A stretch of 14,583 nt of DNA from Candidatus Hodarchaeaceae archaeon. Lineage in GTDB: Archaea > Hadarchaeota > Hadarchaeia > Hadarchaeales > Hadarchaeaceae. Below are positions 418-14,545 of this stretch, in pieces; the first letter of the stretch is position 1, and every line of letters starts with the position of its first letter. The notes under the pieces are model-generated. The model searched no databases and was not told the origin of the DNA. It saw only the letters and a list, made by a program, of their open reading frames with translations. Made by a program: the position numbers and the translations under genes. The stretch lies in the NCBI GenBank assembly GCA_030018135.1, contig JASEGJ010000025.1, positions 1 to 14,583 of the forward strand. The letters run 5' to 3'.

Positions 418-5433
<5,016 letters not shown>

Positions 5434-11368: not shown

Positions 11369-13279
11369 ATGCAATTCAAATACGGTGGCTACACAGGTCA
11401 GGTGCTTGAGGTCGATCTGAGCCGGGGAAAGGTCGTCGGTAACCCATTGGACCCTCTCCTAGCCAGGGAATACCTCGGCGGTGCTGGCTTCTGCTCCCGC
11501 GTCCTCTACGATGAAATTGGGCCGAAGACCAGACCGCTAGGTCCGGAAAACGTCTTAGTTATCGCCACCGGTCCGCTGACCGGAACGCTCTTTCCCCAAG
11601 CTTCGCGGCACGTGGTAGCGGCAAAATCGCCGCTCACGGGGATATGGGGCGAGGCTCATGCGGCGGGTCACTGGGGGGCGGAACTCAAGTTTGCTGGCTT
11701 CGATGCGATAATCGTCAGAGGTCGGTCGCCGAGACCGGTTTATCTTTGGATAGAGAATGGACAAGCCAAAATTAAGAACGCTCGACGGCTCTGGGGATGC
11801 GACGTTTACGAGACGGATGCGATGATCAAGGAGGAGTTCGGGGATGGGTCGATCAAGCTCCTCTACATAGGGCAGGCCGGGGAGAACCTCGTCAGGTTTG
11901 CTGCCGTCATGAACGACCTAGATCGAGCCGCTGCGCGGACGGGCATGGGCGCCGTGATGGGCTCGAAGCGCCTAAAGGCGGTCGCGGTTAGGGGCAGCCG
12001 GGACATCCCGATAGCGAAGCCTGAGAGCTACTTGAAGCTGATGGACGAGCTCCGCGAGAAGATGCTAGCCGACCCCTTCACGCAGGGGCGCGCGGACTAC
12101 GGCACGCCGAGCTTGGTGGAGCTCATGAATGAGATCGGGCGCCTGCCCACCCGCAACTTCCAGACGGGCGTCTTCGAGCACGCAGAGGCGATAGGCGGCA
12201 AAACAATAAGGAAGAGGTACTTGGTCAAGCCGAGGGCCGATTTCGCCTGCATTCAACGCTGCGGCCGTTACACCTGCGTGCCCGAAGGACCCTACGCCTA
12301 CATCGGCGGAAGCCCGGAATACGAGACGCTTTCTTGCGTGGGGTCGAAGTGCGGCATCGGCGATGTCGAGGCGATACTGTACGCGCACCACCTCTGCAAT
12401 CGATACGGCATGGACACCTGCAGCTTCGGGGGCACGCTTGCCTGGGCTATGGAGTGTTATGAAAAGGGGATAATCACAAAGGACGACACGGGCGGCCTCG
12501 ACCTCAGCTGGGGAAACCACGCATCGATGGTCGAACTCGTGCACATGGTCGCACGCCGGAAGGGCTTCGGCAATATTTTGGCCGAGGGCAGCTACCACGC
12601 GGCGAGGAAGGTAGGCCGTGGAGCTGAGGAGTACGTGATGTGCATCAAGAAGCAGGAGATAGCTGGGCAGGATGGCCGCGCTCAGAAATCAATGGGCCTC
12701 GGAAATGCTACCGCAGCGAGGGGCGCAGACCACCTCTACGCATTCCCGGTGCTCGATGAGGTAGGATTCGAGAAGGCGATACGCGAGCGCTTTGGGGCGA
12801 AGTACCTGCCGGAAATAGGTGAGAAGCTCAACCCCAAATACAAGGGATTGATGGTCAAGGAATGCGAGGATTTTGCGGTGGTGGTGGAGTCGGTCGGCGT
12901 TTGCAAGTACGGCACGATGATACCCCCCACCTTCTTCTATTCAGATATTCTGAGGGCGCTCAACGCGACGACGGGCATGAGGCTCACCGAACGAGAGCTG
13001 CGCAGAATAGGCGAGCGCATCGTTAACCTCAACCGAATGTTCAACGTCCGTGAAGGCATAGCACGAAGGGATGATACGCTGCCGGAGCGCCTGCTGAAGG
13101 AACCAGCCCCTGATGGCCCGCCCAAGGGACATGTGGTCGAGTTGGATCAGATGCTCGACGAATATTACAGGCTGCGCGGCTGGGACGTTAAAACGGGCCT
13201 CCCGACGCGCGGTAAACTTAGAGCACTCGGGCTTGAGTTCACTGTCAAGGACTTGCCTCGGCGCAAAGTCGCCCGATGA
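11369..13279 (+). CDS. Tungsten-dependent aldehyde:ferredoxin oxidoreductase family catalytic subunit
   Basis: A 636-aa AOR-family enzyme, usually oxidising aldehydes to acids with a tungstopterin cofactor and one [4Fe-4S] cluster. Family hallmarks include the opening GGYTGQVLEVDLS, EYLGGAGF, GPLTGT, SPLTGIWGEAHAAGHWGAELKFAGFDAI, GRAAARTGMGAVMGSKRLKAV-like pterin motifs, SPEYETL and RYGMDT (D349). The cluster motif is unusual. The family pattern C-x2-C-x3-C...C appears here as D291-x2-C294-x3-C298 with C512 (SVGVCKYG) as last ligand, so Asp replaces the first Cys; an extra C303 lies nearby. The ATG start lies one base after the ferredoxin stop. The adjacent polyferredoxin suggests a heteromeric WOR5/AorAB-like enzyme. 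Substrate cannot be told from sequence; other AOR branches (FOR, GAPOR, BamB-like) are possible. Confidence 0.93.
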   Translation: MQFKYGGYTGQVLEVDLSRGKVVGNPLDPLLAREYLGGAGFCSRVLYDEIGPKTRPLGPENVLVIATGPLTGTLFPQASRHVVAAKSPLTGIWGEAHAAGHWGAELKFAGFDAIIVRGRSPRPVYLWIENGQAKIKNARRLWGCDVYETDAMIKEEFGDGSIKLLYIGQAGENLVRFAAVMNDLDRAAARTGMGAVMGSKRLKAVAVRGSRDIPIAKPESYLKLMDELREKMLADPFTQGRADYGTPSLVELMNEIGRLPTRNFQTGVFEHAEAIGGKTIRKRYLVKPRADFACIQRCGRYTCVPEGPYAYIGGSPEYETLSCVGSKCGIGDVEAILYAHHLCNRYGMDTCSFGGTLAWAMECYEKGIITKDDTGGLDLSWGNHASMVELVHMVARRKGFGNILAEGSYHAARKVGRGAEEYVMCIKKQEIAGQDGRAQKSMGLGNATAARGADHLYAFPVLDEVGFEKAIRERFGAKYLPEIGEKLNPKYKGLMVKECEDFAVVVESVGVCKYGTMIPPTFFYSDILRALNATTGMRLTERELRRIGERIVNLNRMFNVREGIARRDDTLPERLLKEPAPDGPPKGHVVELDQMLDEYYRLRGWDVKTGLPTRGKLRALGLEFTVKDLPRRKVAR

Positions 13280-13306
13280 ATTAGCTGACGGGCTTTCCGG
13301 ATATTG

Positions 13307-13334
13307 CAATGCATTGAGATATTTTTCTGATTTT
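13307..13334 (+). terminator. Possible terminator after the oxidoreductase operon
   Basis: A perfect 10-bp palindrome CAATGCATTG (13307-13316) is followed by a T-rich stretch (ATTTTTCTGATTTT, 13321-13334). Archaeal termination mainly needs T-rich tracts, so this could end the operon before the RNA gene promoter. Support is weak. Confidence 0.35.
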
Positions 13335-13370
13335 AGACAAACTATATATAGTATACATGTTAAACAATAA
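13335..13370 (+). promoter_or_regulatory. Strong TATA promoter of the structured RNA gene
   Basis: CTATATATA (13342-13350), preceded by a purine/A-rich BRE-like stretch (AGACAAA), is the cleanest TATA box in the window. Its centre is 25 nt before 13371, where the long terminal stem of the downstream RNA begins. That is the expected archaeal TATA-to-start distance. Confidence 0.7.
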
Positions 13371-13612
13371 CCGGCGGGGATGGAAGCCTACAGAGGCGGC
13401 CGAACCGGAGCCTACGGGCAACGGGGAGTCGTGAAAAAACCTAGGCGAAAAACTAGGGTTTGTCGCGGATAAACGCCTGGAAGCAGGGCGTGAGGTAGCG
13501 GCTGTGGGAAAAAGACCCCAACATGAAAAAGCGGCAGACGACGGAATTGGTCGAGACTCCGAAGTTTGCCGGGGGAGTAGTGGAAGGGTCGAAGTCCCCG
13601 CCACTTTTTTTT
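13371..13612 (+). ncRNA. Candidate stand-alone structured RNA of about 240 nt, no recognised family
   Basis: This non-coding stretch has the layout of an independent RNA gene. The 5' end GGCGGGGA (13373-13380) pairs perfectly with TCCCCGCC (13595-13602), right before T8 (13605-13612). Inside, a nested central rod pairs CTAC 13412-13415 with GTAG 13577-13580, GGCAA 13417-13421 with TTGCC 13566-13570, and GGAGTC 13425-13430 with GACTCC 13555-13560. Local hairpins are GCCT/AGGC (13386-13397), CCTAG/CTAGG (13440-13457, extended by AAA/TTT), CGCCTG-GAAG-CAGGGCG (13474-13490), GGG/CCC (13506-13518) and CGAC/GTCG (13539-13553). No reading frame looks like protein and stops are frequent. I found no RNase P, SRP, tRNA or rRNA signatures. 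Function unknown. All pairings were found by eye. Confidence 0.6.
13605..13612 (+). terminator. T8 terminator of the structured RNA gene
   Basis: Eight consecutive T follow three bases after the GC-rich closing stem of the RNA, the usual form of an archaeal oligo-T terminator. The same tract lies 38 nt upstream of the TTG at 13647, so it might also contribute to the next gene's promoter, though this is less likely. Confidence 0.6.
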
Positions 13613-13646: not shown

Positions 13647-14545
13647 TTGAGTAAACTTATGATCGCTACCAGCGCTGGTTCCGGCAGGTACGAGGATATC
13701 GTCACCGCCTTAGGCAGATTGAAGCGAAAGCCCAGCAAAAGGTTGTTGTTGAAACCGAATCTAGTCGGAGGCGGCCTGGCGGCGACGCATGTCGATGCGG
13801 TCAGGGCGGTGTTGGATAGCATGGATGTGGATCTCATAGCCGAGGGCAGCAGCGTCGACACGTTTGGGCTTTATTCCATGCTCGGTTACAGAAAGTTGGC
13901 GCAGGAATATGGTGTGGACCTCGTCGACATAAATCGGACGGACGAGTGGAGGGAGATAGAATTCACCGCCATCGACGCACGCAAGGTTAAAGTCAGGGTC
14001 TCAGAGTTCTCGCGAAAGTGGAATGTAATTTCCTTAGCGTTGCCCAAAACCCACGACCACGCCATCGTCACGCTGACGCTCAAAAATATGTTGGGATTCG
14101 TGCACCCCCAGGATCGCGGATTGGTCCACGGCTACGCTGCCACCTTCGGTAAGTTGATGAGGATAGCGCCGTTGAGGAAGGTTGCCGCACGCCTCTCGAG
14201 GTTTAGGTCGCTTAGGCGGTTATATTCCTCCACGGAGGTCGAGGAAAGGGCGTATTTACTCGGCGCCAGAGTTGTCCATAAAAACATCGTGGCACGCTCA
14301 AGTTCGCGATGCCGAAGCTCGGCATAATAGATGGCTTCGTGGGCATGCAGGGAGAGGGACCAATCGGCGGCGAACCTGTTGAGTGGAACATGGCGATAGC
14401 TGGCAACCCAATCGAGTGCGATGTGTTTTGCGCTCACAAGATGGGTTTTGATCCAACGGATGTCGGGTACCTACACTACCTTAGGGCGCCAGGGATAGAC
14501 GAGATAAAAGTTGTGGGTGACGAAATCCCGGTGCCGTTCAAATAA
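13647..14545 (+). pseudogene. DUF362 family protein, frameshifted near 14280-14290
   Basis: The protein matches the DUF362 family: KPNLVGG (36-42), LPKTHDHAIVTLTLKNMLGF (from about 132) and, in a second frame, IDGFVGMQGEGP, then IECDVFCAHKMGFDPTDVGYLHYL and a V-V-G-D-E end. The first frame runs from 13647 to a stop at 14325-14327 with a meaningless tail (SSSRCRSSA). The normal continuation (TLKFAMPKLGIIDG...) is in another frame up to TAA 14543-14545. An A5 run at 14280-14284 is the likely spot: one added A would give a continuous 299-aa protein. The start is TTG 13647 or ATG 13659; neither has a clear Shine-Dalgarno. The function of DUF362 proteins is poorly known; some carry ferredoxin domains, but this one shows no Cys clusters. 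Error versus real mutation cannot be decided here. Confidence 0.85.

Follow-up and report, generated by a model that had tools for sequence, protein, structure and literature searches.

A structured RNA gene of Hadarchaeota belongs to an uncatalogued family of paralogous, probably freestanding RNAs

What is encoded in the interval that separates an aldehyde ferredoxin oxidoreductase gene (11369-13279, + strand) from a DUF362 gene (starting at 13647, also +) in the genome of a Candidatus Hodarchaeaceae archaeon? The stretch of 14,583 nucleotides that contains this interval is referred to here as the window. The first-pass annotation placed a structured RNA gene, with its own promoter and terminator, at 13335-13612, and these outer limits proved accurate apart from a few bases. 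The gene itself is assigned to 13373-13612 on the + strand from its stability, its covariation and its match to a covariance model (13373-13604, +). There are no transcript data, and the ends of the RNA are probably at 13371-13373 and at about 13612. As had been claimed, a TATA box (CTATATATAG) is present on the same strand at 13342-13351; from its centre to 13373, where the closing stem begins, the distance is about 26 nt and not exactly 25 nt. The run of eight T residues described at the 3' end was found at 13605-13612 (+) and is the probable transcription terminator. The minimum free energy of the fold is -102.9 kcal/mol compared with a mean of -80.4 for dinucleotide shuffles (z = -4.9), and none of 200 shuffles reached a value as low. 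Conserved coding capacity is absent, the best reading frame being open in no more than 14 of 30 homologues, and the window contains no tRNA or tmRNA.

Alignment of the homologues yields a consensus structure of 61 base pairs, P1 to P10, all on the + strand. The ends are closed by P1, in which GGCGGGGAU (13373-13381) pairs with GUCCCCGCC (13594-13602). This pairing had been reported as a perfect helix of 8 bp; the eight Watson-Crick pairs are there, and with one G-U pair the stem is actually 9 bp long. Compensatory changes support both strands, and exchanges among relatives include GGCCGGAA/UUCCGGCC and GGUGGGA/UCCCACC. Inside P1, P2 (13387-13393 with 13502-13508) is continued by P3 (13399-13401 with 13494-13496), and both covary. 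These helices surround three hairpins. P4 (13405-13424), identified from the alignment and from covariation, carries a 2x2 A/G-rich internal loop and a UACG tetraloop that is replaced by UAAG in many relatives. P5/P5b (13429-13468, formed by 13429-13434 with 13463-13468 and by 13440-13444 with 13453-13457) has covariation scores among the strongest, and in P6 (13473-13491) all six pairs show double-sided changes. The 3' domain (13514-13590), likewise supported by alignment and covariation, consists of P7 (13514-13518 with 13586-13590), P8 (13522-13523 with 13581-13582), P9 (13532-13538 with 13565-13571) and P10 (13542-13545 with 13558-13561). Its terminal loop region, that of P10, is conserved as AGUGGUCGAGA and reads AUUGGUCGAGA in the window's copy. 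When read by eye, an internal loop of this domain, GAAAAA / AGUA, resembles a bulged-G motif. Covariation thus bears out the nested long-range helices of the first-pass annotation (P1, P2/P3 and P7/P8) as well as its hairpins (P4, P5, P6 and P9/P10).

The strength of this support may be judged from 30 sequences of the main type, in which 97.0% of cells are paired and 40 of the 61 pairs show double-sided changes, in 220 cells. When the partners were slid, only 9-15 pairs showed such changes (16-36 cells), and 35-44% of cells were paired. A shuffled control gave 67 double-sided cells, and in none of 500 shuffles was the value as high as in the real alignment. With the paralogues added (58 sequences), the count rises to 50 of 61 pairs; this larger alignment was fitted to the structure, and its count therefore leans towards it. 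The shorter paralogue types C and D, introduced below, were each folded from their own alignment without copies of the window's type, and gave the same architecture: a closing stem, P2/P3 around P4, P5/P5b and P6, and after these a long 3' arm. Both types lack the P10 loop AGUGGUCGAGA. A pairwise covariation scan for long-range pseudoknots, read by eye, revealed no extra helix of consecutive pairs.

The invariant unpaired segments are rich in A and G, namely GGAAAAAG, GAAAAA opposite AGUA, and GGAUAA. By inspection we infer that they resemble motifs that contact proteins or make tertiary contacts. From these conserved unpaired motifs and by analogy, the RNA may act as a protein-binding scaffold or as a regulator; this has not been shown, and we regard it as an even bet.

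Is this a known RNA in disguise? A scan of the whole window against Rfam 15 (4227 families) gave nothing at or above the gathering threshold, and more lenient scans, run on four copies that represent different types, gave only weak, mutually inconsistent matches at the level of chance. A clear match to a known family would have refuted the proposal that this is a non-coding RNA of archaea that is either novel or strongly diverged; the proposal is instead supported. The exclusion of RNase P and SRP RNA, argued earlier from missing conserved cores, also holds: the locus matches neither, and a diverged form of either was rejected because the genome carries its genuine RNase P RNA (contig G000:C41, 204.5 bits) and SRP RNA (contig G000:C7, 147.4 bits) elsewhere. 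Archaeal RNase P RNA (RF00373) is comparable in being archaeal, about 230-290 nt long, closed at its ends by P1 and built of several domains, but the new RNA fails to match that family and has several paralogues. Archaeal SRP RNA (RF01857) is also a freestanding archaeal RNA of similar size; the architecture of the new RNA differs from it and its score is below gathering.

Further parallels are the orphan ornate non-coding RNAs OLE, ROOL, GOLLD and raiA, which are freestanding and strongly covarying and whose functions were initially unknown. The Hadarchaeota RNA shares with them a freestanding, strongly covarying structure, but is archaeal and shorter, has four anciently diverged paralogue types, and carries promoter elements. 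OLE, ROOL and GOLLD assemble into large RNA-only complexes (PMC12286853). It is conceivable that the new RNA is likewise a ribozyme or forms an RNA-only complex, and is not a scaffold for protein, since its many invariant unpaired A/G-rich segments suggest tertiary contacts. We think this unlikely, given that it is far shorter than OLE, ROOL or GOLLD and that cleavage-site evidence is lacking. A structured RNA of Hadarchaeota is unreported in the open-license literature of PMC; subscription papers and preprints were outside this search and such an absence is no proof. The novelty consists in the lack of a match to any known RNA family tested, and a new mechanism has not been shown.

The first-pass annotation left conservation in relatives to be determined, and its absence would have counted against the proposal. 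A covariance model found matches in 22 of the 28 Hadarchaeota genomes searched. By BLAST, 22 of 61 relatives have a homologue, all of them from the same order. Among the GTDB genomes a pattern scan retrieved 34 stretches, 32 of them titled Hadesarchaea, Hadarchaeum or "Hodarchaeaceae"; an "uncultured archaeon" match (L049 = G024) is from a genome in that order. A match in the actinomycete Nonomuraea (L061) was taken as chance, no copy being found there by BLAST. In the genome of the window there is a second full copy on contig C18 (79% identity) and a third, shorter one on contig C40; the genes beside the C18 copy are presumably hypC/hypA, to judge by eye, their names not having been checked with HMMs. 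Most genomes of family f1 have 2-6 covariance-model matches, counting fragments at contig ends, and those of family f3 have one each. A second model, which included the paralogues, was run on 394 genomes; 366 of these belong to archaea of other phyla. In these 366 nothing convincing was found with stricter filters, by which weak homologues could be lost; the single outside match (G037, 18.5 bits, E 0.0018 per genome) is at the level expected by chance across so many genomes. The models had short calibrations and give only rough E-values; matches to the family, nonetheless, are far from threshold. The RNA was not found in phage and plasmid collections. One pattern match from IMG/VR (L111) lies on a contig that looks like a tailed phage from its ORFs, yet reaches a covariance-model score of only 7.4 bits and was set aside as chance. 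As far as we have searched, the family is confined to Hadarchaeota.

Within the phylum, no match was found in either genome of genus g8, one of which is 95% complete, in single genomes of families f2 and f4, or in two fragmented Hadarchaeota genomes. In g8, f2 and f4 the neighborhoods of the reductase gene and of the DNA polymerase B gene (polB) were searched for diverged copies, and the best candidate, at 11 bits, was not above background. Because metagenome-assembled genomes are incomplete, the copy numbers given are minima and the absences must be taken as provisional. Since several Hadarchaeota appear to lack the RNA, it does not appear to be universally essential.

Beyond what was annotated at first, the RNA is one member of an old family with several paralogues. 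There are four recurring locus types, A to D, assigned by hand from the neighboring genes and a tree, and across these types the RNAs are about 205-235 nt long. Type B, to which the window copy belongs, is found near aldehyde ferredoxin oxidoreductase, DUF362 and polB. Type A is convergent with a gene of the geranylgeranyl reductase family, near genes for a DRG-type GTPase, TrkA and ribosomal L10e. The shorter type D occupies the place of A in some genera, or stands in tandem 5' of A in genus g5, and the shorter type C lies near glutamine synthetase and often also near aldehyde ferredoxin oxidoreductase. Further full-length copies adjoin NifS/NifU genes and others are found elsewhere; Fe-S cluster genes are among the differing neighbors of the RNA across loci. 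Two genomes have unusual copies. In L110 (2958-3117; G003:C17) a shortened copy of 160 nt, with most of the 5' domain missing, lies upstream of polB and is either a remnant or an assembly artefact. L098 (G001:C30) has two copies, one full-length and strongly diverged (2085-2307) and one C-like (1-169) that is cut by the start of the contig. In the tree, copies cluster mainly by locus type, across genera, and not by genome, from which it is inferred that the duplications are ancient and have been kept vertically; several deep nodes of this tree are weakly supported.

These neighborhoods bear on whether the RNA is a cis-acting leader, riboswitch or autoregulatory, of a downstream gene such as polB or DUF362, with the RNA as 5' UTR and the T tract as a regulated terminator. 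About ten genomes have the locus-B RNA directly 5' of polB on the same strand, and in the window only some 40-60 nt separate the RNA from the start of the DUF362 gene downstream, also on the same strand. The expectation for a leader, namely a constant position and orientation before the same gene, is not met. The same RNA is followed by different genes from locus to locus, polB in the genome of the window is on another contig (C5), and the RNA is convergent with the reductase gene at locus A and with a phosphatase gene at the B-type copies in two genomes (L047 and L055). Because the neighbors differ between loci and the orientation is often convergent, we consider a leader function improbable.

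The claim that promoter, closing stem and terminator agree on the same ends holds across the homologues: in nearly all copies, of all paralogue types, a TATA-like box lies about 24-28 nt before P1, and in most copies there is a T-rich tract within a few nucleotides after the closing stem. Farther upstream, about 50-60 nt from the A and B copies of most genera, there is a dyad, GGAAATATTTCC, often preceded by a second half-site, GATATTTC (for example at the A/B copies of L010, L004 and L007). From its position relative to the RNA in other A/B copies, the corresponding element in the window is a degenerate dyad, TTGAGATATTTTTCT (family form TTGGAAATATTTCC), at 13314-13328 (+); another half-site, GGATATTGC, may be present at about 13298-13306. 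Eleven genomes, nine with the RNA and two of genus g8, were searched for the dyad with one mismatch allowed. In the nine RNA-bearing genomes most matches lie upstream of these RNAs and the remainder are mostly inside reading frames or beside unrelated genes, while in g8, which lacks the RNA, matches are merely scattered. The window's own degenerate dyad is not among the one-mismatch matches. In genus g5 the C-type copies carry another palindrome, GTTACATTTTCAGTAAC, in a comparable position. This difference from the A/B dyad suggests that RNA subtypes are under separate transcription factors.

Two further explanations were weighed. An H/ACA or C/D guide for rRNA modification would, like this RNA, be archaeal, structured and represented by several paralogues, and some hairpins do differ between paralogues. 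By inspection, however, the alignment has no conserved 3' ACA box or C/D boxes, and in 13 RNA/genome pairs complementarity to the 23S region was no longer than that of shuffled RNAs. The comparison used rRNA of the same genome and covered 16S only where it fell within the 1.5-kb flanks; the window's own metagenome-assembled genome lacks rRNA genes. With no excess complementarity to the 23S region, and 16S only partly covered, we judge the guide function very improbable. That the RNA belongs to a mobile element (group I/II intron, omega-RNA or retron), as its RNA component or as what is left of one, is scarcely credible despite the several copies per genome, the tandem pair in g5 and the truncated copy in L110, because chromosomal positions are conserved with copies grouping mainly by locus across genera, no transposase, TnpB or RT family recurs among the neighbors scanned, Rfam intron families give no match, and none is found in phages or plasmids.

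As a whole, these results leave us highly confident that this is a real, freestanding, non-coding RNA family that acts in trans; the family itself is well supported and its function is an inference. In the mechanism that we propose, each RNA gene would be transcribed from its own TATA promoter, with the A and B types controlled by a putative factor bound to the upstream dyad, and transcription would stop at the T tract. The RNA, of about 230 nt, is predicted to fold into two domains closed by P1 and to act in trans; its likeliest role would be to provide the RNA core of an RNP or to serve as a regulator. Contact with protein may be made through the P10 loop and through internal loops that are conserved and rich in A, an inference for which no partner protein or target has been identified, and paralogues A-D would be versions under separate transcriptional control. 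That 13373-13612 (+) is a type-B member of an uncatalogued, freestanding, trans-acting Hadarchaeota RNA family that works in this way seems to us rather probable. It could with equal justice be affirmed or denied that the family constitutes a phylum-specific RNP or RNA machine, with types A-D of ~205-235 nt arising by ancient duplications in f1 from a type-B-like ancestor, separate promoters, and a function unknown from other archaea.

To our knowledge, archaea rarely yield new large structured non-coding RNAs that covary strongly. This one, from uncultured members of a deep-branching lineage of the deep subsurface, is a candidate regulatory RNA, or RNP, specific to that lineage. With dozens of sequences, a covariance model and a defined range that includes natural absences, the family can be tested in metatranscriptomes and in vitro.

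Two protein-coding genes of the window also deserve mention. In a CDC48/VCP-type AAA ATPase gene at 418-5433 (+), of 1671 aa, both AAA modules are interrupted, each by one intein splicing domain and one LAGLIDADG-type endonuclease domain, two of each kind in all. The DUF362 gene (13647-14545, +) is present as two overlapping frames of 226 and 78 aa, where relatives have one frame of about 324 aa; the split reflects a frameshift that is either real or an assembly error.
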